From the NCBI GenBank assembly GCA_030748435.1, contig JASMLZ010000094.1:1-64000 (forward strand): a DNA stretch of 64,000 nucleotides, in the 5' to 3' direction. The notes below the pieces were generated by a model. It saw only the letters and a program-made list of their open reading frames with translations, was not told where the DNA came from and searched no databases. The translations under genes were made by a program, and so were the position numbers. Positions 2,405 to 57,335 of this stretch are shown here, piece by piece (position 1 is the first letter of the stretch; every line of letters starts with the position of its first letter). Source of the DNA: Gammaproteobacteria bacterium. GTDB taxonomy: Bacteria > Pseudomonadota > Gammaproteobacteria > Pseudomonadales > Balneatricaceae.

Positions 2405-4261
2405 TTACTGACCCAACCTCTGTGTCAGCATTAAGTACAACTGAGGCAATTTTTGGGGCAATTGTCGAGCCGAAGAAATCCAACTATAGCCTTGGCGACC
2501 AAACAGATAGGGCAAGTACTGATTGGCACGCGAATCAATAGTGATACAAAAGGGCACCAAACCCTGTTTTCTGGCTTCGACAATGGCCATACGCGTATCT
2601 TCAATGCCATAGCGCCCTTCATAGCGATCCAGATCATTGGGCTTGCCATCGGTAATAATCAGCAGTAGTTTTTTTTCTTCGGTCTGACGCCCAAGGAGCA
2701 CTGAAGCATGGCGTATAGCCGCGCCCATACGGGTATAGAAACCCGGCTTGATAGCTGCTATACGACCCCGGATGTTAGCATTATAGACTTCACTGAAGTT
2801 CTTAATGCAATGCATACGTACATGACTAGGTTTGCAGGAAGAAAAGCCGTGAATGGCAAACTCATCTCCTGCCGCTTTTAAGCTTTCTGCAAATACATAC
2901 AAGCTATCACGGATGACATCAATAACTTGTTGTTCATCATTAATCCATGCATCAGTAGATAAGGATAAGTCTGCCAATAACAGCGTAGCTAAATCTCGAG
3001 CAGCGGGATATTTCTGGCTAAATAGACGTGCCTCGGCCGGTTGTTGTCCTTGCTGCAGACTGGCCCAATAGTCAACATAAGCTTCTATATCAAGACGATC
3101 ACCTTCAAACTGACCTTTGTGCCAACGTGGAAAAGCGGCCAGTTGCTGGAACTGGCGTTTTAGGATAGTACAAGGTTTACGTAAGTGCTCAGGCAGGTCA
3201 CAAGCTACGGCATCACGACTTAACATAGGTAATAATTGACAATAGTCTGCCTGCAGTTGCTGCTTACTATAGTCCCATTCCGGATATCGAATACCTTCAC
3301 TTAACACTAAATCATCAGCCGCCGCCGAGGGTAGGTCAAGGTCAAACTTGATTCGGCTGGTGGTGCTGGTTTGGCTCTGAGAAAGCGACATTTGATCAAG
3401 CTCATCGGCAATTTTTTCCGCATCTGATAAGTCCTCATCTTCTTCTGCACTGCGATCCAACTTCACATACTCGGCAAAAGTAAACAAACTGGTCTCATGA
3501 CGCACACCAAAGGGTGCCCCCGGCTTGTCATCGGGCATTTCAACACGTTCACCACGACGCCGTCTTTCATCAGCTTGGGCTATTTTTTTGGCCTCATCCA
3601 AACCCACTGTGGAATCTTCATTGGTTGATAAATCAGCAGTCGCCAAGGGTGGCGAAGGGTGCAACCACAAATAAACAGGGGCCGGCGATATTGTGCTATC
3701 AAAGAAGGTTCCAGCAGTCACTGAGCCCGGATCACACAAGGCCTGACGAATGGTTTTTTCTTGGTATTTTTCTGCTTCTGACAGGGATTTTAGCGAGGGC
3801 CTCATGGGTAGCATAGCCGCCACTAACTGCTCATAGCGTCCAGTCAAACCTGGAAACGCCCCTAGGGTTTTTATAGTGGCTTGCTGGCTGGCCTGTAACC
3901 AATCATCTGCAGGCAAACTACCAGATGTGGCCAACGCGGCTAACCAATAGTACAAGTCTTGATTAAGTGCTTGACTTGGCAACACATCAAGACTGTGAGG
4001 CAAATACAAACAGCGCTCATCACGCCACGCCAACTCCACCTTCTGCCCCGTACCAGCCAGCCGATGCAGCCAACTGCGCCGAGCACCATGCGAGGTAGCA
4101 GAGCAGCTACTAATTGTTAACCCGGCATCACCACCCATAGCTCTAAAAAAAACGCCCAAAGGGGCTTTCACTTGCTGCAATTCCAGCTTTGCTTTAGGAA
4201 AGCTATTGTGTGCTGCCCGAGTAATAAAACGGTGCCAATATTGACCAACCCTTTCTTCCAT
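2405..4261 (-). CDS. norD: NorD-like nitric oxide reductase activation protein (VWA domain)
   Basis: C-terminal VWA domain (LLLIITDGKPNDLDRYEGRYGIEDTRMAI...) typical of NorD; directly downstream of norQ. Confidence 0.9.
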   Translation of the reverse strand: MEERVGQYWHRFITRAAHNSFPKAKLELQQVKAPLGVFFRAMGGDAGLTISSCSATSHGARRSWLHRLAGTGQKVELAWRDERCLYLPHSLDVLPSQALNQDLYYWLAALATSGSLPADDWLQASQQATIKTLGAFPGLTGRYEQLVAAMLPMRPSLKSLSEAEKYQEKTIRQALCDPGSVTAGTFFDSTISPAPVYLWLHPSPPLATADLSTNEDSTVGLDEAKKIAQADERRRRGERVEMPDDKPGAPFGVRHETSLFTFAEYVKLDRSAEEDEDLSDAEKIADELDQMSLSQSQTSTTSRIKFDLDLPSAAADDLVLSEGIRYPEWDYSKQQLQADYCQLLPMLSRDAVACDLPEHLRKPCTILKRQFQQLAAFPRWHKGQFEGDRLDIEAYVDYWASLQQGQQPAEARLFSQKYPAARDLATLLLADLSLSTDAWINDEQQVIDVIRDSLYVFAESLKAAGDEFAIHGFSSCKPSHVRMHCIKNFSEVYNANIRGRIAAIKPGFYTRMGAAIRHASVLLGRQTEEKKLLLIITDGKPNDLDRYEGRYGIEDTRMAIVEARKQGLVPFCITIDSRANQYLPYLFGRQGYSWISSARQLPQKLPQLYLMLTQRLGQ

Positions 4262-4304
4262 ATTATGCGCCCTTTATTAAGGCCTTTGCAGTATGCAAAG
4301 GTGG

Positions 4305-5129
4305 TCATGAATCAAATACGGCATGCACCAGTTGCATTAAACCTGTAAGGGTATCTGCATCATCGCTAAGTGGTTCAATCATGCCTGCCCGACAAGCTGC
4401 AACCGGATCAAATCCAGACTTAATTAAAGTCGCTGTGTACACCAACAAGCGGGTACTGGCACCCTCTTCAATATCTTGATCTTTAAGTTTTCTCAGCGCA
4501 TTGGCCAGGCTTACCAACTGCTCAGCCGTGGTGATATCAATATCACTTTCTTGCATAACCACTTGGGTTTCTGCCGCCGCCGGTAAATAGTCAAATGTCA
4601 GGCAAATAAAGCGCTGTCGTGTGCTGGGCTTTAGACCCTTGAGCAGATTTTGATAGCCGGGATTATAAGATACCACCAACATAAAGTTATCTGGAGCATG
4701 CAAAGTTTCGCCTGTACGGTCGATAGGCATGATGCGACGGTCATCGGTCAAAGGGTGAATAACTACCGTGGTATCTTTGCGCGCCTCCACAACTTCATCC
4801 AAATAACAAATACCGCCCTCGCGTACCGCACGTGTAAGTGGCCCATCCTGCCACTGAGTTTGCTGCTGAGCGATTAAATGCCGCCCCACAAGATCAGGTG
4901 CAGTTAGATCATCATGGCAAGCAACCGTGTGCAACGCCAACCCCAGACGCTGCGCCATAAAGCTGATAAAACGGCTTTTACCACAACCAGTAGGACCCTT
5001 GATCAGGACTGGAAGCTGATGTTGGAAGGCATGCTCAAATAGGGCAATTTCATTGCCCTGAGGTTGGTAATAAGGTGTCTTTATATCCTTGTCATTAGCC
5101 ACCAGATTGAGGCTACTATGATGATGCAT
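4305..5129 (-). CDS. norQ: NorQ/CbbQ-family MoxR AAA+ ATPase
   Basis: Walker A GPTGCGKS, ICYLDEVVEARKDT, VSYNPGYQNLLKGLKPSTRQRF. Confidence 0.92.
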   Translation of the reverse strand: MHHHSSLNLVANDKDIKTPYYQPQGNEIALFEHAFQHQLPVLIKGPTGCGKSRFISFMAQRLGLALHTVACHDDLTAPDLVGRHLIAQQQTQWQDGPLTRAVREGGICYLDEVVEARKDTTVVIHPLTDDRRIMPIDRTGETLHAPDNFMLVVSYNPGYQNLLKGLKPSTRQRFICLTFDYLPAAAETQVVMQESDIDITTAEQLVSLANALRKLKDQDIEEGASTRLLVYTATLIKSGFDPVAACRAGMIEPLSDDADTLTGLMQLVHAVFDS

Positions 5130-5139
5130 ATTTTACTCC

Positions 5140-5412
5140 TCAGTAATTAGCGCCCTGTGTAAAGAAAGAAATAAGCCCGATGATGCTTACTACCAAAGGC
5201 ACATAAGCCATCATCAGACCGCGCCAAAGCCACGGTGCTTCAGCCAAGCCCATAAAATACTCACTAATAACAGTGGCCTTAACAACTGTAATCAATAGCA
5301 CTATCAATAACCCAAACAAGTGCAAATCGGCTACCTCGGCAAAACTTGCAGAGGCCAGTGTCAACAACAACAATAGCAACCATAAACCAAGCCGTAATAA
5401 AACCATTCTCAT
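5140..5412 (-). CDS. norF: NorF-like small membrane protein (cytochrome c oxidase subunit IV-like)
   Basis: 90 aa, 3 TM, VVKATVISEYFMGL motif; between norE and norQ. Confidence 0.75.
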   Translation of the reverse strand: MRMVLLRLGLWLLLLLLTLASASFAEVADLHLFGLLIVLLITVVKATVISEYFMGLAEAPWLWRGLMMAYVPLVVSIIGLISFFTQGANY

Positions 5413-5428
5413 GGGCTTATCGAACTCC

Positions 5429-6902
<1,474 letters not shown>

Positions 6903-7247: not shown

Positions 7248-8165
7248 CTAGCGCAGATGTTGGATCACACGATCAGCGATCAGTTGGCTTACTCTGATAT
7301 TGGATTCTACGGTAACACCAGCGATGTGTGGCGTCAGCAGTAGGTTATCAAGACCGATGAACTTTGCAGCATCATCAGCTGTTAAAGGTTCGTTTTCAAA
7401 TACATCCAGGGCTGCACCACCGAGCATTCCTTCGCGCATAACATGAGCCAGAGCGACCTCATCAACTACCCCACCGCGAGCAGCATTCACTAATACCGCA
7501 CCCGCTTTCATTAGGGCCAGTTGGTCATTGCTGATAAGGTGATAAGTATCGTTGGTCAAGGGCACATGCAAACTCACCACATCAGCAACCTGCAATAGAG
7601 CATCCAAGGGCATGGCTTGAGTATTACCCCAAGCCGGATTGCTTGGCTCCAAAAATGGGTCATAAGCACACACCTTCATACCCATTGCTTTCGCCCTTTT
7701 AGCAGCCTCTCGGGCTATACTACCATAGCCAATCAACCCCAGCGTTTTACCCGACAACTCCCGGCCAGCACATGCTTGGCGTGGCCACTCACCAGCTAAC
7801 ATGGCAGAGTGTGCATTATAGGCACCTCGCAGCAGGACCATAGCACTGGTAATAACATACTCGGCCACACTCAAGTCATTGGCACCAATGGCAGGATAAA
7901 CGGCTATATTACGTGCCTGACAAGCTTGCACATCAATATTATCCAAACCCACCCCGAGCCGGCCGACACACTGTAAATCCGGGGCATGATCCAGCAGCTC
8001 AGCGGTCACTTGAGTGCGGTTACGCACAATAATAGCCTTGACTCCAGCCATCTCCTGCGCCAATAAGTGCTGGCTGTCAGCCAAAGCAGGGGCATAGTTA
8101 GTTGCAAATAGGTCAGTCAATTGTGCTACAGCTGTTTTATCCATAAACTCAGTGATCAGTATCAT
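7248..8165 (-). CDS. D-isomer-specific 2-hydroxyacid dehydrogenase, candidate SlcC-type sulfolactate dehydrogenase
   Basis: ILITEFMD start, GLIGYGSIAREAAKRAKAMGM NAD-binding, RGGVVDE and H-I-A-G-V motifs; genomic context. Confidence 0.8.
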   Translation of the reverse strand: MILITEFMDKTAVAQLTDLFATNYAPALADSQHLLAQEMAGVKAIIVRNRTQVTAELLDHAPDLQCVGRLGVGLDNIDVQACQARNIAVYPAIGANDLSVAEYVITSAMVLLRGAYNAHSAMLAGEWPRQACAGRELSGKTLGLIGYGSIAREAAKRAKAMGMKVCAYDPFLEPSNPAWGNTQAMPLDALLQVADVVSLHVPLTNDTYHLISNDQLALMKAGAVLVNAARGGVVDEVALAHVMREGMLGGAALDVFENEPLTADDAAKFIGLDNLLLTPHIAGVTVESNIRVSQLIADRVIQHLR

Positions 8166-8179
8166 AGTTAAAGCATCCC

Positions 8180-9625
8180 TTAGATTCCGGCAATCGCCGT
8201 ATATTTAGTTTCCAAATAATCACTCAAACCCTGACTACCACCTTCCTTGCCCAAACCACTTTCTTTCAAACCACCAAAAGGTACTTCTACGGTAGTGATC
8301 AGACCAGAGTTAATGCCAATCAAACCATACTCAAGTGCATCTGACAGGCGAAACACACGGCCTACATCACGAGTATAAGCATAGGCAGCCAAACCAAACT
8401 CCGTGGCATTGGCCGCAGCAATAACTTCTGCTTCATCTTCAAACTGAAACACCGCCGACAGTGGACCAAAAATTTCATCTGTGGCAAATTGCATATTGGC
8501 TTTGGCATTGGTAATAACCGTAGGTTGGAAAAATGTCCCCCCCAGAGCATGCCGCTCCCCCCCTTGTACCACCTGACCACCTTTGGCAGTGGCATCCGCA
8601 ATCATCTGCTCAACTTTTTGTACAGCACTAATATCAATCAAAGGCCCCTGTTCTACCCCGGCTTGCATACCATCACCCACGCATAAATCAGCCGTAGCCT
8701 GTGTTAAGCGACTGACAAACTCATTATGGATGCCAGACTGAACATAAAAACGATTGGTACACACACAGGTTTGCCCCATATTGCGGTACTTGGAAATCAT
8801 CGCGCCTTCTATAGCTGCGTCAATGTCGGCATCGTCAAAGACAATAAAGGGCGCATTGCCACCCAGCTCCATAGACACCTTCTTAACTGTCTCGGCCGAC
8901 TGACGAATCAGTGTTTTACCTACCTCGGTTGAACCGGTGAAAGTCACCTTACGCACGTGAGGGCTGGACATGATTGCGCCACCAATGTCACGTGATGACC
9001 CAGTTAGAATGTTCACGACACCCGGTGGAAAGCCCACCTGCTCACACAGCACTGCCCAAGCCAAAGCCGAGTAAGGTGTGGCGGTGGCCGGCTTGGCAAC
9101 TACAGTGCAACCAGCAGCCAATGCTGGGCCTAACTTGCGCGCCAACATGGAGGACGGAAAATTCCAGGGTGTAATCGCACCCACAACGCCAACCGGATGA
9201 TGTGTGACCAGCAATTTACGATCATTGGCAGGGGCCGGAACGATTTCACCTTTGGCCCGTCGAATTTCTTCAGCAAACCACAAAATATAGGCCGCACCAA
9301 TGGCAATTTCACCCCTAGACTCAGCTAGAGGCTTACCTTGTTCAAGGGTCAAGAGTTGTGCCAGCTCCTCCTGATTTTCGAGCAGGGCTGCATGCAGCTT
9401 GCGCAACAGGTCAACACGGTAGGAAGTGTCTGTTTGTGACCAGCTTTTAAAGGCTTCGGCGGCCGCTGCAATAGCCTTCTCGGTTTCATCTGCCCCGCAA
9501 TTTGGCACTGTGCCAATCTGTTCTCCATTGGCAGGGTTGTTTACGGCAATAGTTTGGCCGTTATCGGCGTTAACCCAAGCACCTGCAACAAAGCATTTTT
9601 GCTGCATCATATTGGCAATGGTCAT
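8180..9625 (-). CDS. GabD-like NAD(P)-dependent aldehyde dehydrogenase; candidate sulfolactaldehyde dehydrogenase
   Basis: ITPWNFPSSMLARKLGPALAAGCTVV, MELGGNAPFIVFDDAD, GQTCVCTNR; succinate-semialdehyde dehydrogenase-like. Confidence 0.88.
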   Translation of the reverse strand: MTIANMMQQKCFVAGAWVNADNGQTIAVNNPANGEQIGTVPNCGADETEKAIAAAAEAFKSWSQTDTSYRVDLLRKLHAALLENQEELAQLLTLEQGKPLAESRGEIAIGAAYILWFAEEIRRAKGEIVPAPANDRKLLVTHHPVGVVGAITPWNFPSSMLARKLGPALAAGCTVVAKPATATPYSALAWAVLCEQVGFPPGVVNILTGSSRDIGGAIMSSPHVRKVTFTGSTEVGKTLIRQSAETVKKVSMELGGNAPFIVFDDADIDAAIEGAMISKYRNMGQTCVCTNRFYVQSGIHNEFVSRLTQATADLCVGDGMQAGVEQGPLIDISAVQKVEQMIADATAKGGQVVQGGERHALGGTFFQPTVITNAKANMQFATDEIFGPLSAVFQFEDEAEVIAAANATEFGLAAYAYTRDVGRVFRLSDALEYGLIGINSGLITTVEVPFGGLKESGLGKEGGSQGLSDYLETKYTAIAGI

Positions 9626-9627
9626 AT

Positions 9628-10644
9628 CTATTTTTCCTTGTTAAATTTAAATTGTGTATGTTGTCTGTAGCGCTCTGAGGCTCGCAATAATGCTTGTGGA
9701 AAATGTGGATTATTTGGTGCATCCGGCCACGCTTGTGGCTCAATGGCAATGCCTGCATAGGCCCCCAAAGGTCGTTGGTCCAAACCGAGCACAGGTACAT
9801 CCAGCAAACTACCATCATATACCTGTAAGCCAGGCTCTGTAGTACTTACATGCATGGTGATACCGGATGTCGCATGGCTAAGCTGCGCCACCTGACGCAG
9901 TGCAGTTTTTTGTTCTGCCAAGCAAAAATTATGATCATGAGGCATGTCAACGACCCTGTGTCGCAGCATTTGTGGATATCGATAATCAAAATTGGTTCCT
10001 GCTACAGACTTTTTTTCTCCGGTAGGAATCAACTCTTCATCTACTGGCAGATAATACTCAGCATCAACTTGTAGCTTATGATCAAGCACATCATCTGTAT
10101 CTCCCAGATTAAAATAGCTGTGATGGGCCAAATTGCATAAGGTAGTCGCATCAGTAGTGGCTTGGTAGACGATGTCCAATACACCGTCATCAAGCAAGGT
10201 AAAGGTAGCATTTACCGCCAAATTACCCGGAAAGCCCATGTCGCCATCAGGGGTATCAATAGCCAATTGCACACTATGGTGGGTTTGGTCGACAATACGC
10301 CAAACCTTTTTCCCCATACCAGCCTGCCCACCGTGTAATAAGTGCTTGCCCATAAAGTTACGGTCAAGGTTATAAATAACACCGCCAAACACGGCTTGCC
10401 CATGACCAATACGATTGGCATAGCGACCTGCTGTGGCGCCAAAATAGCGTGAATGATTTAGGTAATCAGCAAGGCTGTTCAGGCCCAATACCAAGGCACC
10501 TGGGTGCCCTTCTAGTCTGAGATCCTGTAATACTGCCCCGTAGGTTAAAAAGGTAGCCGTAAGACCACCACCAGCTATGGTAATGCTGGCCACCTCCTGA
10601 CCATCTGGCATGACTCCAAATAAATTTATTGAGGGTTCATTCAT
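9628..10644 (-). CDS. Aldose 1-epimerase (GalM-like), candidate sugar mutarotase of the cluster
   Basis: TLCNLAHHSYFNLG, GRYANRIG, RYFGATAGRYANR. Confidence 0.9.
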   Translation of the reverse strand: MNEPSINLFGVMPDGQEVASITIAGGGLTATFLTYGAVLQDLRLEGHPGALVLGLNSLADYLNHSRYFGATAGRYANRIGHGQAVFGGVIYNLDRNFMGKHLLHGGQAGMGKKVWRIVDQTHHSVQLAIDTPDGDMGFPGNLAVNATFTLLDDGVLDIVYQATTDATTLCNLAHHSYFNLGDTDDVLDHKLQVDAEYYLPVDEELIPTGEKKSVAGTNFDYRYPQMLRHRVVDMPHDHNFCLAEQKTALRQVAQLSHATSGITMHVSTTEPGLQVYDGSLLDVPVLGLDQRPLGAYAGIAIEPQAWPDAPNNPHFPQALLRASERYRQHTQFKFNKEK

Positions 10645-10647
10645 TGT

Positions 10648-11736
10648 CTAATCCAATGCCACTGCCAGACCGGTTCTGGCCGATAACTCAGCTGCTTCAC
10701 CAACTCGGACAGACCAGAGTGCGTCTTCGATAGTGACCTCTGGTTCTCCAATACCAGTTTTCACCAACTGCAGAAACTTCTGATGTTGGTAATAGGTTGA
10801 GCCATGGTGATCTCCAGCTGCCAAAATAGTTTCATCGACCTCCACATCCTGCTTAATCTGTTGTTTACTGGAACGCTCAGATATAACCAGCTGCGATCTG
10901 CGCTCTTTACCATCTTTGGAAAACCGTGCCGGGCCTGGTATACGGGCATCAATACGGCCCTTCGCACCGGTTAGGGACACGACCTCCTGCCAGTAGGAAC
11001 CTTCGGCAAACATACATAAGTCAAGCATGCCCCTAGCTCCATTACGAAAGTCAACGATAACAAAAGCATTATCAATAATATCCGGCGTCTGACCATCATA
11101 CTGTTCGTCCAGATGGTTCACATCAACACCAGCCGAAGCATATACTCGCACCGGATCACTGCGCAAAACCAAGCGCATCAAATCCCAAAAGTGACAGCAC
11201 TTCTCTACCAATGTGCCTCCTGTGCGAATATTAAAACGATTCCAGTCACCAACCTTTGTCAAGAATGGGAAGCGATGTTCACGAATCGCCATCATGCGCG
11301 GCACCCCAACATAGCCTTTTTCCTGAGCTGCCATAAGCTGCTGGATTGGAGGCATATAGCGATATTCCATAGCTACCCATATGGGAGCGGCACGATCCTT
11401 GGCAGCGGCAATAACTGTGCGACATCCTTGCGCTGTAGTACACAAAGGCTTTTCACACAGTATGGGTTTATCAGTAGGTAACACATCCAGCAATAGCGAC
11501 TGATGTGTATCATTGGGTGCCACTATCACATAAGCGTCACATACATCCGCCGCAAGCATAGTGTGGTGATCAGTGAATGTTTGAGCCCTGCCACCAAGCA
11601 AGCCATTGGCCAGTTCAAGCATACCCTCATCGGGGTCGGTCAGAGCCACCACTTCAACCCCATCAATAAGCAATATATTGCGGATATGTTCCTGCCCCAT
11701 CATACCTGTGCCTATCAGGCCATAACGTATTGTCAT
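10648..11736 (-). CDS. Gfo/Idh/MocA-family protein; candidate NAD+-dependent (GH188-type) sulfoquinovosidase
   Basis: YGLIGTGMMGQEHIRN Rossmann, CEKPL motif, GGTLVEKCCHFWDLMR; ORF start trimmed to MTIRYGLIG. Confidence 0.8.
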   Translation of the reverse strand: MTIRYGLIGTGMMGQEHIRNILLIDGVEVVALTDPDEGMLELANGLLGGRAQTFTDHHTMLAADVCDAYVIVAPNDTHQSLLLDVLPTDKPILCEKPLCTTAQGCRTVIAAAKDRAAPIWVAMEYRYMPPIQQLMAAQEKGYVGVPRMMAIREHRFPFLTKVGDWNRFNIRTGGTLVEKCCHFWDLMRLVLRSDPVRVYASAGVDVNHLDEQYDGQTPDIIDNAFVIVDFRNGARGMLDLCMFAEGSYWQEVVSLTGAKGRIDARIPGPARFSKDGKERRSQLVISERSSKQQIKQDVEVDETILAAGDHHGSTYYQHQKFLQLVKTGIGEPEVTIEDALWSVRVGEAAELSARTGLAVALD

Positions 11737-11737
11737 A

Positions 11738-13123
11738 CTAGATTTCCTGTAAAGGTAGTTGCATTGATGCCGCCACTGCTCGCAGAATGTTGCGGTGGTC
11801 GCCATAAGCTAAGGCCATATGATGTTCCAGGCCAGAATCCAGAATGTTTTTTAGTACTTGCCCTGCATGTCGCTCATAACGAATTACGCCAGAGGTGCCG
11901 GTAAAGGACATAGGCCGATCCTGCATTTCGCCATATGTAATCACCATTTTGAGTGAATTATGGCTCTGGGAAATGCGCATCATTGTTACCGGACCAGGCT
12001 TTAACGCAAATTCATATAACAACGGCATTTTGCGATTAGTATGAATGGTGGCTGTGGCTGCAGTGCTTGAAGCCCGCATTGAGATGGGAGCCTGACCACA
12101 GTGCCATACCACACCAGTGTTATCCTCAACATCAAGGTCAACCAGGTCCGTAAGGAATACCGGCTGGCCAGTTGCCTCTTGCAACACCATTTGGGTCAGA
12201 GCACCATAAACATCAGCCTCACAGGCACATGGTATTTGCGCCTCTCCCATCATGGATACGGGCCCGCAAACAGCACCGCCATACTCGGTAAAAGTTTCCG
12301 GCCAGCAACGAATGGCAAAAGCATCATAACCACCGGTTTCACGTAATTGATCAAGCCCAACTTTCAAGCGCAGAGATTTGTCCAGCTCGATTTGGTCTAC
12401 TTCATGCAAACCATCTGCAACCTGTTCAGCCTGCTTGCGAACTAATTCCACATGCTCTTCGGAAGCAGCATCGGCCACATCAAACAGATCTGACAGTTGT
12501 AAAGCATCAACTTTTATCCCTGCCAATTGTTCAACTTCTTGCCCGGAATAGGCACAGGTATCAAAGCCAAGAGGGTGCTCCCCAATACGCCCCACACGCT
12601 TACCTTTTAGTGCTTCGACAATCTGTTTACCGGCGTTTGACTCAAAAGCTATCGAATCCTGTGTAGGCAAAGGTATATTTTGTCTGTTGCCAGCCAGCAT
12701 AGCTTCAATATCTTCCATTACCCTGCCTGTTGGATCAGCATACAGCCAGGAAAATTGTCTATTGTTCAAACTGAGCGCATGGCTGGCAAGATTAAGCCCA
12801 CAAAATGCATTTAACCTTAAGCGACCACCAACTCTCGGTTCTGGCACAGCCCATATGGATAATGGCAGGGTAAATGCCTGAGCCAACTTGGCTGTCATGG
12901 CGGCGTCGGTAAAGGTTACCTGAAGGATAAGCAACTGATCGATATCTGTATCTTTCAAGTCGGCGGCAGCCTTGTCTGCCTGCTCGGCATCCAACAAAAG
13001 CTCCCTTGGGCCAATGATGGTATGACGACTTTGGTCAAGAACAGTCAGCATCTTGTGCAATTTTTCATTGGCGTACTCAACATCAAAGGTCCCTCTACCA
13101 AGGGCTAACATCCCAATCTTCAT
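11738..13123 (-). CDS. L-fucose/L-arabinose isomerase-family protein; candidate sulfoquinovose isomerase
   Basis: MKIGMLALGRGTFDVEYANEKL...; IRCWPETFTEYGGAVCGPVSMMGE...CEADVYGALT; start at 13123 has SD (CAGGAGATTGTT). Confidence 0.82.
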   Translation of the reverse strand: MKIGMLALGRGTFDVEYANEKLHKMLTVLDQSRHTIIGPRELLLDAEQADKAAADLKDTDIDQLLILQVTFTDAAMTAKLAQAFTLPLSIWAVPEPRVGGRLRLNAFCGLNLASHALSLNNRQFSWLYADPTGRVMEDIEAMLAGNRQNIPLPTQDSIAFESNAGKQIVEALKGKRVGRIGEHPLGFDTCAYSGQEVEQLAGIKVDALQLSDLFDVADAASEEHVELVRKQAEQVADGLHEVDQIELDKSLRLKVGLDQLRETGGYDAFAIRCWPETFTEYGGAVCGPVSMMGEAQIPCACEADVYGALTQMVLQEATGQPVFLTDLVDLDVEDNTGVVWHCGQAPISMRASSTAATATIHTNRKMPLLYEFALKPGPVTMMRISQSHNSLKMVITYGEMQDRPMSFTGTSGVIRYERHAGQVLKNILDSGLEHHMALAYGDHRNILRAVAASMQLPLQEI

Positions 13124-13149: not shown

Positions 13150-14175
13150 TTAAATAGCCGCATACTGTTGACGAAATTGCGCGTCTGCATAGGCAAAATG
13201 CGCGCCGCTGGGGCTGTAGCAAGAATGCTGTTTCCATGGTTGTGCTGCAGCATCTGCCAACAATGAAATCTCACGCATATAATCAGTGGCACCACCTCGC
13301 AAATCCAACTCGATCTGCTGCCAATTGGGATAGGCGTTAAATGCTTCCAACCAAATAGCCCTACCGGCCAGAAAGCCAGAGGCTCCAGCCTTAAATGCAT
13401 GCGCCAGTACCTGTTTGAATTCTTCCTTACCCGCCCCGGCAGAAAGCATCACCCAAGGCCTGCCCGCAAGGCGGCCCATTTCATCAAACACTGCCTGTAC
13501 TTCGCTAGAGCCATCTGCATCAGCAGCATTTACAGGACTTTCCAACTTAAAGACATCAACACCATAGTCTGGTTTGGCAAATTCCATAACTGACTCTAAT
13601 ACATGCTCGGCTTTTTTGCCCTTCATCTCAACATACTCTTTAGTTTGGTGCACATCTTTTGCCAGAGGATAAACCAGCAGCTCAAACAAAAAAGGAATAT
13701 CAAAGCGCGCGCACTCTTCACCTAAACGTTTCACATAGTCCTGTTGCTGTTGCAGTACTCGTGGTCCAGCATCAGGACGATACCAAGCCAATACTTTTAC
13801 CGCATCACCACCCATACGCTTTATTTTAGATACCGACCAATCATCAATATCTGCACTCAATCGACCGTCTATTGTTTCAGCAAAAAGGGAATCCTCCAGG
13901 GTCACAATTAAACCTTTACTTGGGCATAGAGCATCAAGGCTATAGGGAATAGCATAATGTGGGTCAAGCAACATGGCCGTACTCTGTTCCTGCAGGGTCT
14001 CAACCAACAGGCCTTTAAATTTGGCAACCTGCTCCCATGGGGCTTCACTAGTTCCTAAGTGTGCGGCTATAGGGCCCTTAATTGGTGGGCGTTGATCCAC
14101 AGCGGTCATCTTGAAAATACCTCTTGCATCAGCCATGCGACGCAACCCCCACTGCTTACCTGGTGATAACTGCAT
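13150..14175 (-). CDS. Class I (LacD/YihT-like) aldolase
   Basis: GIFKMTAVDQRPP, DAVKVLAWYRPDA, VDVFKLESPV, VMLSAGAGKEEF, GFLAGRAIW. Confidence 0.85.
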   Translation of the reverse strand: MQLSPGKQWGLRRMADARGIFKMTAVDQRPPIKGPIAAHLGTSEAPWEQVAKFKGLLVETLQEQSTAMLLDPHYAIPYSLDALCPSKGLIVTLEDSLFAETIDGRLSADIDDWSVSKIKRMGGDAVKVLAWYRPDAGPRVLQQQQDYVKRLGEECARFDIPFLFELLVYPLAKDVHQTKEYVEMKGKKAEHVLESVMEFAKPDYGVDVFKLESPVNAADADGSSEVQAVFDEMGRLAGRPWVMLSAGAGKEEFKQVLAHAFKAGASGFLAGRAIWLEAFNAYPNWQQIELDLRGGATDYMREISLLADAAAQPWKQHSCYSPSGAHFAYADAQFRQQYAAI

Positions 14176-14177
14176 AC

Positions 14178-15059
14178 TTACTTCTCCTTAATAAAATGTT
14201 CTGTTGCAACACGATCGGGGCAACCTTGTCGTCCCCCTGAGCGTGTACATTTGATAGCGGCAGCAGCATTAGCAAATATAACAGCATCCTTTTCGCCAGC
14301 TCCTTCAGCTAACCTGAGGGTAAAGGCGCCATGCCAAATATCCCCAGCACCCAGAGTATCAACAACGTTTACTGGATAAGCGGGCACTGTTTCTATCTTA
14401 TTGTTAGCCACATAAAATGTGCCATTGGCACCATCTGTCACACTGCAAAACCCTGACACTGTAGCGGCAACTTCTAGCAAAGCGTCCTCCAAACTATTAG
14501 CTTTTGCCAAAGACATTAAGCCCTGTTTCGAGCACGCGATATGGCTGGCCAATGTTAAAAGGCGTTTGTCAACGGGAGCCTCAGCATCAAGCACACCGGG
14601 GATACCTCGCTCTTGGGCCCACTTCAGAGCTCTAGCAGACGCTTCAACCCAACGGCTATCTACCAGTACAGCATCAACCTGTGGTGCCAAATCAATCCAG
14701 TCTGTATTTGTGCACAAGCCAGAGCCCCGAAAATTAACAATCTGCCGTTCACCAGCACTATTTAAATAAACCGACGAATAAGATGACTGAGCTCCCGGGC
14801 AGCGCTGCACATAACTGATATCAACCTGTTCATGCTGTAAATCGGTAACAATTAGATCACCCATATAATCGTCACCCAAACGGCCACCCAAGTATGCTTT
14901 GCCTCCCAGTCTTACTATTGCCACAGCAGCATTGGCGGCAGGGCCACCACCAACAATAGTGGCTGACCTAGCAGCATACTTATCTGCTTTATCAGGCATT
15001 TGATCGACAGTAAAAACAAAGTCCATCACTGCCATGCCAACTACAAAAATACTCGCCAT
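14178..15059 (-). CDS. PfkB-family kinase, YihV-like candidate 6-deoxy-6-sulfofructose kinase
   Basis: GGGPAANAAVAIVRLGG, DTLGAGDIWHGAF, IKCTRSGGRQGCPD; ATG at 15059 overlaps the upstream TGA (TGATG); K27/N109/R136 match recalled YihV sulfonate-binding residues. Confidence 0.85.
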   Translation of the reverse strand: MASIFVVGMAVMDFVFTVDQMPDKADKYAARSATIVGGGPAANAAVAIVRLGGKAYLGGRLGDDYMGDLIVTDLQHEQVDISYVQRCPGAQSSYSSVYLNSAGERQIVNFRGSGLCTNTDWIDLAPQVDAVLVDSRWVEASARALKWAQERGIPGVLDAEAPVDKRLLTLASHIACSKQGLMSLAKANSLEDALLEVAATVSGFCSVTDGANGTFYVANNKIETVPAYPVNVVDTLGAGDIWHGAFTLRLAEGAGEKDAVIFANAAAAIKCTRSGGRQGCPDRVATEHFIKEK

Positions 15060-16366
15060 CAATCCACCTTCAAGCCACTGGGTACATGTTTTGGCTTTCC
15101 TAAAACACCGTTAATCGAGTCTGTTCCCGTCAGTGCGTTAAGAAAAGCGATAAGATCAGCCACCTGATCGTCTCTGAGCTGAAGTGGCTGAATATCTAAT
15201 TTAGAGCTTACTCGTTGCCGCTCACGCCAATCCTCCAAGGACAGAAAATCGGTCTTTTGCAACCATGGTGCCTCAGGTAGATTCACCATTTCAGGTCGCC
15301 AACTCGCAAATCCTGCCTGCGGATCCAAATGGTGACGCACAATACCCTCTAAGGTAGCATAAGCACCGTTATGACCATATGGCGCGGTCAGGGCAACATT
15401 TTTGAGCGATGGTGTGCGAAACCGATACGCATCTTCGAGCCTGTCTGATGCCGCCATACGGCCCACATCACGAATCACCATATCCCACTGACGCGTTCGC
15501 CCTGGGCCAAACTGAGGCAAACCTAAAGCATGAAATTTATGATCAGTTAACAGTGGACCAGTGTGACAACGGTCGCACCCGGCAGCACCATAAAACAATG
15601 CCATTCCACGCATCTGGCCCTGAGTCAGAGCATCATCCTGACCATTTAAGTAAGCATCAAAAGGGGAGTCTGTCGAACGCCATTCCAGTGCTTCAAAAGC
15701 AGCTATGGCATTAGCAATATGAGCAATAGTGACTTGCTCGGGTGTATCAACATCGGCGAAGGCATTAACAAACATTTCACCATATTCGGGGATAATACGA
15801 ACTCTCTTGGCAAGAATAGGCCACACCGCATCAATTCTGTCATAGACCGCACCACCAACCTGATTTTCACCAGGGTCACCCGCCATTTCAAATTGTGATG
15901 TAAGGGGGAACAAGGCTTGTACCGCCAACAAGCTATTTAGACCTTCAGGCAACCATTCCTGCGCCGGTGTGTTGAAGTGATTGTTATAGAATGGCGCATG
16001 ACTCACACGCCCATCAAGAAAGAAAGATAAATATTCTTTGGCTCCTACATTCCACAAACCTGGAGCATTACGAGGAATGCGCTTAAGCACTCTGGCAGAG
16101 CCTTCACCTGCTGAACGTTCAGGGCCCAGACCAATACCCCCCTCACCAATACCAAGCGCCAAACCATCAGCACTACCGAGATCATGATTATGGCAAGTAC
16201 CACAGGAAATATTACGGTTGCCTGAAAGGAGGGGATCATAAAAAAGTAACTGGCCCAACTGGGCCTGCTGTTCACTAAACACGTGGAAGTCGCTATCATG
16301 TGGAGCTTTAGGTAATTCCAAGGCAAAAGTATGGCTACTCAGAAAACCAATAAGCACTATAAACAT
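15059..16366 (-). CDS. Di-heme cytochrome c peroxidase/MauG-family periplasmic protein
   Basis: Two CxxCH motifs (CGTCH, CDRCH); signal peptide MFIVLIGFLSSHTFA; ORF track start trimmed from 16807. Confidence 0.82.
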   Translation of the reverse strand: MFIVLIGFLSSHTFALELPKAPHDSDFHVFSEQQAQLGQLLFYDPLLSGNRNISCGTCHNHDLGSADGLALGIGEGGIGLGPERSAGEGSARVLKRIPRNAPGLWNVGAKEYLSFFLDGRVSHAPFYNNHFNTPAQEWLPEGLNSLLAVQALFPLTSQFEMAGDPGENQVGGAVYDRIDAVWPILAKRVRIIPEYGEMFVNAFADVDTPEQVTIAHIANAIAAFEALEWRSTDSPFDAYLNGQDDALTQGQMRGMALFYGAAGCDRCHTGPLLTDHKFHALGLPQFGPGRTRQWDMVIRDVGRMAASDRLEDAYRFRTPSLKNVALTAPYGHNGAYATLEGIVRHHLDPQAGFASWRPEMVNLPEAPWLQKTDFLSLEDWRERQRVSSKLDIQPLQLRDDQVADLIAFLNALTGTDSINGVLGKPKHVPSGLKVD

Positions 16367-16962: not shown

Positions 16963-18021
16963 CTAGTTCACATCAGCAGCACGTGCTGCATTGATGTCTT
17001 GCTCAGCTTCAGCAACCGCTGCAGTAAGTGCATTGAAAGATGCTTCGCCACCACGAACATTTTTCATATACCAATCATACACAGGAGCAGAGGCTTTCTT
17101 AAAGTCTGCCTTTTCTGCTGGGGTTGGCACATACAAATCACCACCACCGGCAACGAAGTCTTGGTAGGCACTGATCGACTTACGCTTTGGAGAAGCAAAG
17201 GTAGCCTGTTGCAAGGCATGGAAACCATCAACCACCACCTGTCGCAGGCTTTCTGGCATAGCTTTGAACTTGGCATTATTCATCCACCACAAAGCACCCA
17301 TGTAAGCGTGTCCATCCAAAGTCACATACTGCAGGCCAGCATCAGGGAATTTCATACCCATAATGTCAGTAATGCCATTCTTGGAACCTTCTACTACACC
17401 AGTTTGGAAAGAAGTGAACAGTTCAGGCCAAGGGATTGGGGTTGGCGAAGCACCCAAGGCACGTACCAATTCCTGAGGCAAATCAGCCACTACTGTGCGG
17501 ATTTTCAAACCTTCCATATCAGCTGGGCCCTGCACCCGACGTTTGGTATTGGCAAAATTACGCCAGCCACCAGTGTTACCAATGGTCATCAAGCGAATAG
17601 CGTCACCCGAATCTTCCAGCGCCATATCACGAATAGTGCGAGTGAAATCGCCGGTTAGAACATGCTCAGCTACACGATCGTCGGCCATCAAGTATGGTAA
17701 ATCCAGCACTTGAACGTAAGGGAAAATACCTGCGGCACCGCCAGATGTACTGATGTAAATATCAACAGAACCATCAGCCACACTTTGTAAACATTCAGCA
17801 CCACCTTTACATAGTTGTGTGCCAATAAACAGTTCTACCGAAACAGCACCGTTTGATGCTGCTTCTACATAGTTTTTGAAAACGACCAAACCATCATAGT
17901 CTTCATCATTTTCATTAGAGTTAGCGGTAGCACGCAGATTAAAATCTGCTGCTACAGTTGGCAGTGCAATACCTGCCATCATAGTCGCAAGTGCTACTGT
18001 TTTTAGGGTTTTTTTGAACAT
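16963..18021 (-). CDS. TRAP transporter substrate-binding protein DctP
   Basis: Signal peptide MFKKTLKTVALATMMAGIALPTVA; GLKIRTV...PWPELFTSFQTGVVEGSKNG; SD GGAG before 18021. Confidence 0.92.
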   Translation of the reverse strand: MFKKTLKTVALATMMAGIALPTVAADFNLRATANSNENDEDYDGLVVFKNYVEAASNGAVSVELFIGTQLCKGGAECLQSVADGSVDIYISTSGGAAGIFPYVQVLDLPYLMADDRVAEHVLTGDFTRTIRDMALEDSGDAIRLMTIGNTGGWRNFANTKRRVQGPADMEGLKIRTVVADLPQELVRALGASPTPIPWPELFTSFQTGVVEGSKNGITDIMGMKFPDAGLQYVTLDGHAYMGALWWMNNAKFKAMPESLRQVVVDGFHALQQATFASPKRKSISAYQDFVAGGGDLYVPTPAEKADFKKASAPVYDWYMKNVRGGEASFNALTAAVAEAEQDINAARAADVN

Positions 18022-18071: not shown

Positions 18072-19571
18072 TCACTGAACAAACCCGGTTAACCGTGGAA
18101 TGGTCATTGACAAAAACGGGAAGTAAGTAATAAGGAATATTACGGCCACTTCCACGGCCAAAAATGGCAATATGGTACGCGAAATAGTTTCCACTCTTTC
18201 TCCAGACACCGAAGAGGCAACAAACAACACCAGCCCCATGGGTGGCGTTGCCAAACCCACGGTCAAATTGACCGCCATAATGACAGCAAAATGCACAGGG
18301 TGAACACCCAGATCAACAAAGATGGGGCCTAAAATGGGGCCTAATATGATGATCGCCGGACCAGCATCAAGAAACATCCCAACGACAAACAACAGGATGT
18401 TGATCAAGAACAGCAAAATGAGTGGATTATCACTCAAACCCAGAATCATATCGGCCAACTGTTCCGGCGCATGGCTCAAGCTAATCACAGTCTTAAAGGC
18501 CACCGAAGCGCCCACCAAAAGTAATACAGTTGACGATGCCAAAGCAGATTTAGACAGAACCTTGGACAGGTCCTGAACTTTCATGGATTTAAGAATAAAT
18601 AGAGAAATGATTAAAGCATAAGCCACGGCAATGGCCGATGCCTCAGTGGGAGTAAATACGCCAATCAAAATACCACCCAATATAATAATGGGTGTCTGCA
18701 AAGGGGCCACAGCTTTTTTGCAGATTATGCGAAAATCACTGGATACCATACGCCTCAAACGTAGCAAAAATAGGTGCGCAGGGAGTAGCAGAACCAAGTA
18801 CATAAGCCAGCCAGAAAGTTGCACCTGCATGCCGGCAAAACTATTGAGTAAGGCTATCACCCCCAAACATAAAACAAACATCAAACCGGCAACATTTAAA
18901 CGCAATAGCAATAGAGAAACCCAATGTTCAACCGGCGATATAACCTGATTCTTGTTAACAATACGCTGTGCCTTGGGTAATTTATGGCGATCGGCCATTA
19001 GTCTGACCATAATCATCAAACCCACACCAACCATAAAGCCCGGCACAATGCCGGCCAAGAACAGAGCGGCCACACTTTCACCCATTACATAGGCATAAAT
19101 AATCATAATGCCCGAAGGAGGAATAATCGGCCCTATGACCGAACTGGCGGCAGTGACAGCGGCAGCGAACTTGCGCGAATAGCCATTCTTTTCCATGGCT
19201 GGAATAAGTGTCGAACCCAAAGCAGAAGTATCAGCCACCGCCGAACCGGACAAGCCAGCAAAGAGCATGGATGACAAAATATTAACCTGTGCTAAGCCAC
19301 CGCGCAGATGACCCATTAAGGCTTGCGAAAACTCCACCAGACGAATCGTGATACCCCCACGATTCATAAGTTCGCCGGCTAACATAAAAAATGGCAGTGC
19401 CATAAGGGGAAAGCTATCTATACCGTTATAAACATTTCGATATAGCAAGGCAATATCACGTTCCTGGCCGTTCAACCACAGCATGACACCTGGCGCAAAC
19501 AAGAGCGCAAAGGCAACGGGAAGGCCAATTAGAATTAAAGCCAAAAACAGGGGTAACACCCAAATAAGCAT
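18072..19571 (-). CDS. TRAP transporter large permease DctM
   Basis: GLPVAFALLFAPG, SGSAVADTSALGSTLIPAMEKNGYSRKFAAAVTAASSVIGPIIPPSGIMIIYA. Confidence 0.93.
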   Translation of the reverse strand: MLIWVLPLFLALILIGLPVAFALLFAPGVMLWLNGQERDIALLYRNVYNGIDSFPLMALPFFMLAGELMNRGGITIRLVEFSQALMGHLRGGLAQVNILSSMLFAGLSGSAVADTSALGSTLIPAMEKNGYSRKFAAAVTAASSVIGPIIPPSGIMIIYAYVMGESVAALFLAGIVPGFMVGVGLMIMVRLMADRHKLPKAQRIVNKNQVISPVEHWVSLLLLRLNVAGLMFVLCLGVIALLNSFAGMQVQLSGWLMYLVLLLPAHLFLLRLRRMVSSDFRIICKKAVAPLQTPIIILGGILIGVFTPTEASAIAVAYALIISLFILKSMKVQDLSKVLSKSALASSTVLLLVGASVAFKTVISLSHAPEQLADMILGLSDNPLILLFLINILLFVVGMFLDAGPAIIILGPILGPIFVDLGVHPVHFAVIMAVNLTVGLATPPMGLVLFVASSVSGERVETISRTILPFLAVEVAVIFLITYFPFLSMTIPRLTGFVQ

Positions 19572-20173
19572 TATTCGGCCTCCACACTATAGGTAGTTGG
19601 TTGATCTGTGGTGGGTAATACCGCATCTGCATTCCATAGCTGCATAATAAGACGCAATATCAATTCAACATTAACCAGCAACATCAAGCCGGTGCCCAGT
19701 AATAAAGATGCATACATATAGCGTAGCTTAACCCTGACCATCTCAAATCCAATCCAATCAAGAGGTAAGCGCAAAGAGGAGCTGGTAAAGTTACCCCCAA
19801 ATCCCAGCGTATGGTTATAACCATGCTTTATGCCAACCCACAGCACGGTGGCAGACATAAGTAGCAAAACTAAAGCGGCCACACGGCCTAACAACTGCGG
19901 CAGGTGGCGGAGGAACATATCAATAGCAACAAAGCCACCCCATCTAAATGCCGAGGGAGCCATCAGACATGTCATCCAAAGCATAAGGAAACGGGCAAAT
20001 TCATCTGGCCAGGCCATTGCATCATTTAAGACATAGCGGAAAAATACTTGCAGTAGAATAACCACGACCATAACTGCCAGGCCAATACTGGCAACCAGTC
20101 TACCGATAGGCAGGATACGGTTATTAACCGTAGCAAGAACTCTGAGTACAACCATTAACATGTATGCACCCAA
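19571..20173 (-). CDS. TRAP transporter small permease DctQ
   Basis: VFFRYVLNDAMAWPDEFARFLMLWMT, 4-TM; adjacent to dctM. Confidence 0.9.
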   Translation of the reverse strand: MGAYMLMVVLRVLATVNNRILPIGRLVASIGLAVMVVVILLQVFFRYVLNDAMAWPDEFARFLMLWMTCLMAPSAFRWGGFVAIDMFLRHLPQLLGRVAALVLLLMSATVLWVGIKHGYNHTLGFGGNFTSSSLRLPLDWIGFEMVRVKLRYMYASLLLGTGLMLLVNVELILRLIMQLWNADAVLPTTDQPTTYSVEAE

Positions 20174-20367: not shown

Positions 20368-21147
20368 TCAGGTATCAAGCAACTGCACATCATGCTCAAG
20401 GGCCAACTGACGCAAATGACGAGAACAACGCTTATCAGTTACCAACGTATTGATGTCTGACAAATGACCAATCTGTACGGGGGCAGAACGGCCAAATTTT
20501 GAACTGTCCGCAACCAGAATAATATGGCGTGAATTTGAAATCATCGCCGTTACCACCGCCGCTTCATGCAGATCAAAGTCCAGTAAGGCACCACTGGCTT
20601 CTATGGCAGCCGCGCCAATAATTGCAATATCAAAGCGAAAGTTATTTATAAAATCAACAGCTGTTTGACCAGAAATTGTACCATCAGAACGCCGTACTTC
20701 TCCCCCTGGCACCAGTACCTCAATATCCATAAATGATTTAATATCATTGGCTATGAGCACACTGTCTGTAACCACCCTCAGGCCAGAATGGTATTTTATA
20801 TTGCGTGCCACAGCAGCTGTCGAAGTACCTGCATTCAGGGCAACCACCGCATTGTTTGGTATTAGTTTGGAACAGGCCACACCTATACGATACTTTTCAT
20901 CACTGGCTATTTCCTTGCGCGCTTCATATTTAGTGTATTCGTTACCTGCCAACAGCATGGCACCGCCATGCACCCGCATAACCCCCCCTTCTTCTTCCAT
21001 GATACTAAGATCCTTGCGTATTGTTTGGGGGGTCGCACCAAACATAGCTGCCAACTCATCAACCGAAACTCGGCCTTTTTTTTGTATATGACTTAACATC
21101 AAAGCTCGCCTGTCGCGGGCCTTTCTACCCTTGATACTTGCCACCAT
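20368..21147 (-). CDS. DeoR/GlpR-family transcriptional regulator
   Basis: RRALMLSHIQKKGRVSVDELAAMFGATPQTIRKDLSIMEEEGGVMRVHGGAM. Confidence 0.93.
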   Translation of the reverse strand: MVASIKGRKARDRRALMLSHIQKKGRVSVDELAAMFGATPQTIRKDLSIMEEEGGVMRVHGGAMLLAGNEYTKYEARKEIASDEKYRIGVACSKLIPNNAVVALNAGTSTAAVARNIKYHSGLRVVTDSVLIANDIKSFMDIEVLVPGGEVRRSDGTISGQTAVDFINNFRFDIAIIGAAAIEASGALLDFDLHEAAVVTAMISNSRHIILVADSSKFGRSAPVQIGHLSDINTLVTDKRCSRHLRQLALEHDVQLLDT

Positions 21148-44775: not shown

Positions 44776-46446
44776 GTGAAACCAAATTTTCCATTTACGG
44801 CTGTGGTCGGCCAAGCACAAGTAAAACTGGCTTTGGTGCTATTGGCCATCGATCCGATAATAGGTGGTGTACTGGTCAGCGGCCCTCGTGGGAGCGCCAA
44901 ATCCACCCTCGCCCGTAGTCTGGCAGACCTGCCTATCAACGGTCTGCGACAGCTTATCACCTTGCCCTTGGGTAGCAGTGAAGAAATGGTTACCGGCACC
45001 CTTGATCTACAACAGGCCCTGGGCGAACAACAGGTGGCGTTTGCGCCTGGCCTATTGAGTAAAGCCCATCAAGGCTTACTCTATGTTGATGAAGTAAATC
45101 TGCTTCCCGACAGTCTGGTGGACCTGCTATTGGATGTGGCCGCCAGTGGTGTCAACCGCATTGAACGCGACGGTATTAGCCATGAGCACGCCGCCGAATT
45201 TGTGCTTATGGGAACCATGAATCCGGATGAGGGTGAACTCCGGCCACAACTCTTGGACCGTTTTGGCTTTGGGGTCGCACTGGCTAACCGCTACAGCGCT
45301 CAAGAACGGGTTGAAATTGTGCGCCGCAGGCAAGCCTTTGATAATGATCCACAGGCTTTTCTGGCTACCTATGCCGATGCACAGACTCACCTTGTAGAAC
45401 AGATACATCAGGCACAGGAACGACTGCACCAAGTAACCATCAGTGATCAGCTACGTTTGGCCATAGCCGAACATTGTGTTGCTGCACAAGTAGATGGTGT
45501 ACGCGGCGATCTGGTGTGGCTGCGCGCGGCCTGTGCTCATGCCGCCTGGCAACAGCGCCAAGAGGTGACTATGGATGATATTGATGCTGTAGCAGAGCTG
45601 GTGCTGATGCACCGCCGTCAACAGCCACCTAAAGCCTCTAGCCCCCCTGACAATAGTATGCCACCACCCCTGCAGCAACCACAGAATCAAGCCAAGCATA
45701 CAACGGCAGCTGATAGTGATTGGGGGCAGATGCAACCCCAAACTCAGCATACTGGTCAACTCAGCGCCCTTGATATGGGGTCTAACCCACATCAGCCCCA
45801 AACAGGCCCAGCTGGAGCCTGTTCCAGCCAAGGCAATTTATGGCACGGTAAAGGGCAGGCTACCCGCAACTGGAGCCAACGCATTAACTGGTTTGCCAGC
45901 CTGATAGCCGGGCGTGGTAGCAAACCTGAACTGCGTTACCGCCGTCAACAAGGCGCCGACCCGACCATGCATTTAGTATTGCTGGACACCTCCGCATCTA
46001 CCCTCTCCGGCCAAGGCCAAGCACAGGCTAAAGGTTTGGTAGCCGGTTTGGCCCAACAAGCCTATTTGGCGCGCCAGCACATGTTACTGCTGGGTTTTGG
46101 TAACGACAAGGTAGAGCCATTATTGGCTTTGGGCCGTGCCCCCAAAACCATGACATCATTATTGAACAGCATTGGCGCTGGTGGCGGCACGCCCCTTAGG
46201 CAGGCTCTGCAACAGGCCCAAGCCTGCGGCCAACAACTTCTGCGCCGCAACCCCACCACGCGCATTATTAATTACATTATTACCGATGGCCGCGTACAAC
46301 AGGATATAACGGGTCTGCACCTGCCTGGTATCAGCGTACTAGTCGATACAGAACAAAGCCAGATCAAGCGCGGTCGGGGGCAACATATTGCCCGTCATTT
46401 AAGCGCCGAATATTTTACTCTGGCCCAAGTACAACAATTTACCTAA
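44776..46446 (+). CDS. Fused ChlI/BchI-type AAA+ and ChlD/VWA chelatase subunit (cobaltochelatase partner)
   Basis: VSGPRGSAKSTLARSLADLP; LYVDEVNLLPDSLVDLLLDVAASG; Pro/Gln linker; VLLDTSASTLSGQGQAQAKG VWA. Confidence 0.9.
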   Translation: MKPNFPFTAVVGQAQVKLALVLLAIDPIIGGVLVSGPRGSAKSTLARSLADLPINGLRQLITLPLGSSEEMVTGTLDLQQALGEQQVAFAPGLLSKAHQGLLYVDEVNLLPDSLVDLLLDVAASGVNRIERDGISHEHAAEFVLMGTMNPDEGELRPQLLDRFGFGVALANRYSAQERVEIVRRRQAFDNDPQAFLATYADAQTHLVEQIHQAQERLHQVTISDQLRLAIAEHCVAAQVDGVRGDLVWLRAACAHAAWQQRQEVTMDDIDAVAELVLMHRRQQPPKASSPPDNSMPPPLQQPQNQAKHTTAADSDWGQMQPQTQHTGQLSALDMGSNPHQPQTGPAGACSSQGNLWHGKGQATRNWSQRINWFASLIAGRGSKPELRYRRQQGADPTMHLVLLDTSASTLSGQGQAQAKGLVAGLAQQAYLARQHMLLLGFGNDKVEPLLALGRAPKTMTSLLNSIGAGGGTPLRQALQQAQACGQQLLRRNPTTRIINYIITDGRVQQDITGLHLPGISVLVDTEQSQIKRGRGQHIARHLSAEYFTLAQVQQFT

Positions 46447-46449
46447 CGA

Positions 46450-47049
46450 TTGCTTATGACCACTAAAACACACGCACAACGTATGGCCGCTAAAAAGGCC
46501 GTTATTGACGCCCGCATAGCTAAAGCGACAGAAGAACGCGGTGTCGTTATTTTGCTACGCGGCAATGGTAAGGGTAAAAGTAGCTCTGCCTTTGGTACCC
46601 TTATGCGCAGCTTGGGTCATGGCAAAGCAGGTGCTGTAGTACAGTTTGTCAAAGGCCGTATTGCCACTGGTGAACACAAATTTTTCCAAACCCATACCAA
46701 CATTCCCTGGCATATTATGGGTCATGGCTTTACCTGGGAAACACAAGACAAAGGGCGTGATATTGCTGCCGCTGAACAAGCCTGGGAAATAACTCAAAAG
46801 CTGCTACAAGATGATAGTATCGATATGTTGGTGCTGGATGAAATGGCCTATATATTTAAGTACAACTACCTGCCCGTGGAACCGGTTATTGAAGCACTCA
46901 AACGGCGCCCAGCCAAGCAGACCGTGATTATAACTGGCCGGGTTATGCCTGATGCTCTGGTGGACTACGCCGACACAGTAAGCACGGTTAAAGATGATGG
47001 TCACGCTTTTCGCCGCGGCGTTAAAGCCCAAGCAGGGATAGAATACTAA
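46450..47049 (+). CDS. cobO: Cob(I)yrinic acid a,c-diamide adenosyltransferase
   Basis: VVILLRGNGKGKSSSAFGTLMRSLGHG; DMLVLDEMAYIFKY; GRVMPDALVDYADTVS. Confidence 0.95.
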   Translation: MLMTTKTHAQRMAAKKAVIDARIAKATEERGVVILLRGNGKGKSSSAFGTLMRSLGHGKAGAVVQFVKGRIATGEHKFFQTHTNIPWHIMGHGFTWETQDKGRDIAAAEQAWEITQKLLQDDSIDMLVLDEMAYIFKYNYLPVEPVIEALKRRPAKQTVIITGRVMPDALVDYADTVSTVKDDGHAFRRGVKAQAGIEY

Positions 47050-48356: not shown

Positions 48357-48373
48357 CCAGCACAGACCAGATT

Positions 48374-50238: not shown

Positions 50239-50247
50239 GGAAAAACT

Positions 50248-51222: not shown

Positions 51223-51224
51223 CC

Positions 51225-54649: not shown

Positions 54650-54667
54650 TTAATACGAGAGCAAAAC

Positions 54668-55444: not shown

Positions 55445-55455
55445 AAGGAACACTT

Positions 55456-56232: not shown

Positions 56233-56234
56233 GC

Positions 56235-57323: not shown

Positions 57324-57335
57324 AGAAGTTTAATT

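Follow-up and report, generated by a model that had tools for sequence, protein, structure and literature searches.

A probable GH188 NAD+-dependent sulfoquinovosidase encoded in a predicted sulfo-EMP operon of a gammaproteobacterium

Genes of the operon and its surroundings

The window, by which we mean the whole 64,000-nucleotide stretch of DNA that was analysed, carries a minus-strand operon between 7248 and 21147. By homology, genes for a sulfoquinovose (SQ) isomerase, a sulfofructose kinase, a sulfofructose-1-phosphate aldolase and a sulfolactaldehyde (SLA) oxidoreductase, the sulfo-EMP gene set, lie together in it. The gene at the centre of this study (10648-11736) begins with an ATG at 11736 that is preceded by AGGAAATCTAGT, with an AGGA site ahead of the start, and runs without internal stops to a stop codon at 10648, encoding 362 amino acids. 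The operon is packed, with the isomerase gene 1 base upstream and the mutarotase gene 3 bases downstream; a preliminary description had placed a Gfo/Idh/MocA gene between these two, and coordinates and domains confirm this order.

The upstream neighbour (11738-13123; 461 amino acids) encodes an SftI/SqvD-like SQ isomerase that scored 288.8 bits against the SftI model NF048012, below the cut-off of 700. Its longest open reading frame begins at 13237, and the likely true start is the ATG at 13123, which has an AGGAGA site. Beyond it lie a class I LacD-type aldolase (13150-14175; PF01791), likely a sulfofructose-1-phosphate aldolase, with PDB matches to 8tnf (1e-90), LacD (1e-40) and YihT (1e-17), and a PfkB kinase (14178-15062), likely a YihV-like sulfofructose kinase, whose best match and nearest solved structure is the sulfofructose kinase 7ag6 (E 4.2e-57). 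These are followed by a MauG-like gene discussed below, by the TRAP solute-binding protein DctP (16963-18021, with 18021 the likely start; PF03480, 1.7e-51), the large permease DctM (18072-19571; PF06808, 5.9e-114) and the small permease DctQ (19571-20173; PF04290, 1.6e-21), and by a DeoR-family regulator (20368-21147; PF00455, 8.5e-47), of the family to which E. coli CsqR/YihW also belongs.

Downstream of the mutarotase, which belongs to the aldose-1-epimerase family (9628-10644; PF01263, 5.6e-71), is an aldehyde dehydrogenase of the GabD/SSADH type (8180-9625). It passed the SSADH model TIGR01780 marginally, at 647.4 bits against a cut-off of 646.35, and could act on succinate semialdehyde as an alternative substrate; judged partly by its position in the operon, it is likely an SLA dehydrogenase. 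The last gene (7248-8165; PF02826/PF00389) encodes a D-2-hydroxyacid dehydrogenase resembling PGDH and SlcC. SlcC, an (S)-sulfolactate dehydrogenase, belongs to the PGDH-like 2-hydroxyacid dehydrogenase family, and (S)-sulfolactate is the likely substrate here too. Many relatives have a gene of this type downstream of their SLA dehydrogenase gene.

By homology of the encoded enzymes to those of known pathways, the operon would specify a sulfo-EMP pathway of the hybrid 1/2 type, and hybrid sulfo-EMP1/2 gene sets of Proteobacteria have already been described (PMC12890257). Because neither the isomerase nor the aldolase is close to characterised sulfo-EMP enzymes, which sulfosugar the pathway handles is itself predicted. 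A sulfo-ED reading was dropped, as the operon has an isomerase, a kinase and an aldolase in place of a dehydratase and a lactonase.

Next to the operon, on the minus strand (2405-6842), we found NorD-like, NorQ-like and COX3/NorE-like genes together with a 279-amino-acid open reading frame whose match to COX1/NorB covers just the C-terminal half (profile 223-434). Upstream of this frame there was no N-terminal half and no NorC, and the region reads as a truncated or unusual nor cluster. Two further features lie on the plus strand: a 664-amino-acid sulfatase-family (alkaline phosphatase superfamily) protein (272-2266), weakly like LtaS and choline sulfatase and with no clear family match, and a cobalamin biosynthesis cluster (44776-62713) encoding a CobN of 1290 amino acids, CbiX, CobQ/CobB and a precorrin methylase, in which the GC content (0.52-0.55) is higher than in the remaining window.

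Assignment of the 362-residue protein

Pfam searches with the 362-residue protein returned PF01408 (E 3.6e-21) and PF02894 (E 3.5e-25), in agreement with the Gfo/Idh/MocA fold noted previously; no GH188 model was returned from Pfam or NCBIfam. When we compared the protein with all PDB chains using phmmer, the top three matches were 8zn9, 8qc2 and 8qc3, each over the full length (E 1e-118 to 1e-113), and the fourth was an inositol-type dehydrogenase (E 1e-22). Full-length identity was 53% to 8zn9 and 51% to 8qc2 and 8qc3 (E 4e-113). The latter two are FlSqgA and ArSqgA, respectively, the founding crystal structures of GH188 (PMC10755693).

A dehydrogenase for inositol or scyllo-inosose that shares this fold might also have come to lie in an SQ operon by chance, and the best NCBIfam model for the protein was indeed that of IolG, TIGR04380 (E 2.6e-31). 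However, the score of 108.7 bits stands against a cut-off of 355, identity to inositol dehydrogenases (IolG) is 22-26%, and the substrate residues differ. The genome encodes a genuine IolG elsewhere, on contig C12 as part of iolCDBEG, and this IolG exceeds the same cut-off at 423 bits. IolG-type proteins were set apart at 100/99 in a tree of 71 rows, and a branch at 100/100 divided IolG from GH188 in a tree of 17 rows. A constraint that joined the window protein to two of the four IolGs in the latter was rejected by the AU test (p-AU 1e-62); the preliminary description had named placement among inositol or scyllo-inosose dehydrogenases as the outcome that would count against it, and this is not where the protein falls. 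An earlier tree of 83 rows contained just two IolGs, and we discarded its AU test joining the window protein to both, which did not reject the grouping (p 0.90): with no other IolG in the tree, the constraint does no more than shift the point at which the long outgroup branch attaches to GH188. We consider an inositol-type dehydrogenase extremely improbable.

The GH188 reading agrees with the active site. In the alignment, ArSqgA K107, Y136, E189, H193 and H321 correspond to identical residues of the window protein (K96, Y125, E178, H182 and H310), and the sulfonate triad R166/L170/K172 is kept as R155, L159 and K161. Glu163 of the GH188 paper falls at ArSqgA position 164 in the alignment and is kept as E153. 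Every mapped catalytic or sulfonate-binding position was invariant in all 62 homologues (62/62), and conservation of the sulfonate-binding residues, proposed earlier as a check, thus held. Leu170 of SqgA contacts the sulfonate through its backbone (PMC10755693), and Tyr variants have been described at this position (PMC11465081); the window protein has Leu here, and those variants do not apply to it. IolG proteins lack counterparts of window Y125, E153, L159, K161, E178 and H310, and throughout have only the lysine and the His193 equivalent in common with it; the arginine is present in some.

As many sugar dehydrogenases have this fold, the protein might instead be a plain SQ dehydrogenase that oxidises C3 or C1 and yields NADH. 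Yet the equivalents of SqgA Tyr136, which hydrogen-bonds to the C2 hydroxyl, and of His321, at the C1 hydroxyl, are both kept, and with an isomerase encoded next door the pathway needs no oxidation of SQ; we give this alternative hardly any weight. With 51% identity to the SqgA structures, retained active-site residues and a place in the tree apart from inositol dehydrogenases, the GH188 assignment suggested in the preliminary description stands. We are highly confident in reading the protein as an NAD+-dependent sulfoquinovosidase of GH188, orthologous to SqgA and the predicted gateway of the sulfo-EMP operon, with its catalysis predicted from homology. GH188 is an already established, recently discovered family, whose enzymes use NAD+ in releasing the plant sulfur sugar SQ from the group it is attached to, and the window gene is an ordinary, well-supported new member, so that the finding is mainly one of correct annotation.

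Predicted route from SQ glycosides to sulfite

The cluster had been described as lacking a GH31 glycosidase, and this absence extends to the entire 2.61-Mb assembly (98.5% complete), in which PF01055 had zero matches; the control search found the family in 6 of 14 known genomes. The host is probably able to use SQ glycosides, the common natural form of SQ, without a GH31 enzyme.

Our preferred scheme builds on direct observations of sequence family membership, residue conservation, operon context and GH31 absence. SQ glycosides, for example sulfoquinovosyl glycerol, would be imported by the TRAP transporter, which is assigned by homology and whose cargo and direction are predicted. In the cytoplasm, bound NAD+ would oxidise C3 of SQ, the C2 proton would be lost and the aglycone eliminated; water would then hydrate the enone and the C3 ketone would be reduced back, which would regenerate NAD+ and set SQ free. 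From there the mutarotase, isomerase, kinase and aldolase, acting on their predicted substrates, would convert SQ to SLA and DHAP. SLA would be oxidised to sulfolactate and then probably yield sulfopyruvate and sulfoacetaldehyde, with sulfite as the end point through ComDE-like and Xsc enzymes from genes outside the operon.

A GH188 enzyme whose main natural substrate is either the glycoside of a different 6-sulfo sugar, such as a sulfofucoside, or an SQ glycan with beta links would fit several features of the locus: GH188 cuts both alpha and beta links (PMC10755693), the aldolase is closer to the tagatose-1,6-bisphosphate type than to YihT, and the isomerase is a distant relative of SftI. Against this, the C4-hydroxyl contact (E189) and the full sulfonate triad match the SQ-bound structures, sulfofructose kinase is the closest solved relative of the kinase, and the sole worked-out sulfofucose pathway is of the ED type, in a strain whose lysates had no isomerase activity (PMC12421959). 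We therefore regard a different main substrate as very unlikely and SQ glycosides as the preferred one.

The genome has no SuyB (PF04295), which ruled out the SuyAB sulfolyase as a route for sulfolactate, so that the fate of the C3 sulfonate depends on another locus. On contig C13 (10000-29000; L087) are genes for an SDR, a zinc dehydrogenase, a fused sulfopyruvate decarboxylase-like alpha-beta protein, an FMN lactate-dehydrogenase-like protein, a TRAP transporter and Xsc, the last scoring over its cut-off. The Xsc and sulfopyruvate decarboxylase genes suggest that the C3 sulfonate is mineralised to sulfite, and a course from SLA through sulfolactate, sulfopyruvate and sulfoacetaldehyde to acetyl phosphate and sulfite is plausible.

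Distribution, probable lateral transfer and comparison with known systems

We surveyed the best 80 GH188 loci among named genomes; record titles put almost all of them in the Alphaproteobacteria. Two or all three of the isomerase, aldolase and kinase genes were present in 63 of these 80. Many alphaproteobacteria share the conserved operon, among them Jannaschia, a genus that the GH188 paper also mentions (PMC10755693). Other loci differ: L069, L018, L020, L067 and their kin (Rhodobacteraceae/Natronohydrobacter) have GH188 without the isomerase-kinase-aldolase set and with a 2-hydroxyacid dehydrogenase gene directly after it, and the L069 locus is a sulfo-ED cluster with an EDD dehydratase, an HpcH aldolase, a lactonase and an SDR.

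The 16S sequence of the host, 85.9% identical to that of E. coli over 1543 bases, indicates a gammaproteobacterium. GH188 is sparse among its relatives (7 of 369 sampled genomes in the class, 11 of 245 in the order), and the copies in its class and order are about 47-54% identical to the window protein, with 65% in one member of the genus. The window protein nests in the tree among alphaproteobacterial GH188 proteins (up to 72% identity), and a clade uniting it with the GH188 of its classmates was rejected (p-AU 7e-36). As a gammaproteobacterial host thus carries a GH188 nested among alphaproteobacterial genes, lateral acquisition of the gene from alphaproteobacteria is the simplest reading, and the whole SQ operon appears to have been received from there. 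Within the genus, the window and L115 have the alphaproteobacterial type and L118 has a different GH188 type; an AU test of one against two acquisitions of the window and L115 genes gave p-AU 0.33, compatible with either. The GC content of the operon (0.46-0.49) is similar to that of the rest of the window and so gives no compositional sign of recent transfer. The locus adds a case of a sulfo-EMP/GH188 operon outside the alphaproteobacteria, apparently through lateral transfer, in a host that also carries genes leading from C3 sulfonates to sulfite.

One question raised by the locus is the recurrent di-haem protein beside the SQ-linked TRAP transporter. Located between the DctP and kinase genes (15062-16366, minus strand), this gene encodes a periplasmic di-haem MauG/cytochrome-c-peroxidase-like protein (PF03150) with two CxxCH motifs and a leader-like N terminus at codon 148 of a 582-codon frame; the nearest model, TIGR03981 (His-Xaa-Ser MauG-like), scored below its cut-off. 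Both motifs are kept in 42 of 42 SQ-linked MauG-like sequences. In sulfo-EMP operons of alphaproteobacteria such a gene recurs next to GH188 and the TRAP genes, and it was found in at least 37 of the 63 loci with two or more of isomerase, aldolase and kinase, a lower bound because some loci end at contig ends. It is also present in the differently arranged classmate clusters L116-L119, of which L117 has a TauD dioxygenase and an aldo/keto reductase. Its company with GH188 and TRAP genes thereby spans several pathway types, including a sulfo-dioxygenase-type cluster of unrelated gene order. A literature search for MauG and sulfoquinovose returned unrelated papers and no report of such a link. 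We raise only tentatively the idea that the protein belongs functionally to the gateway for SQ glycosides and carries out, for instance, periplasmic oxidative processing of a substrate or of a partner protein.

Among known systems, the closest likeness is to SqgA (FlSqgA, 8QC2/8QC8; ArSqgA, 8QC3/8QC5/8QC6; Kaur et al. 2023, PMC10755693), with 51% full-length identity, all catalytic and sulfonate-binding residues present, an operon that also encodes an isomerase, a kinase, an aldolase and an SLA dehydrogenase, and a genome without GH31. The window protein differs in belonging to another subclade, of the alphaproteobacterial type, where its identity to homologues from Rhodobacterales reaches 71-72%, and its operon in having a TRAP transporter and a MauG-like gene. 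PDB entry 8zn9, named 'Oxidoreductase, putative', is 53% identical and keeps all of the residues, but groups with the GH188 proteins of the host's classmates, apart from the window protein. IolG (4hkt and the copy on C12) shares the Gfo/Idh/MocA fold, the EKP lysine and one catalytic histidine, whereas its identity is 22-26%, it has no sulfonate triad, and other residues stand at Y136, E164, E189 and H321. The GH109 alpha-N-acetylgalactosaminidase (2ixa) has the fold and an NAD+ oxidoreductive glycosidase mechanism in common with the GH188 enzymes (PMC10755693), although its similarity to the window protein is weak (E 7e-5).
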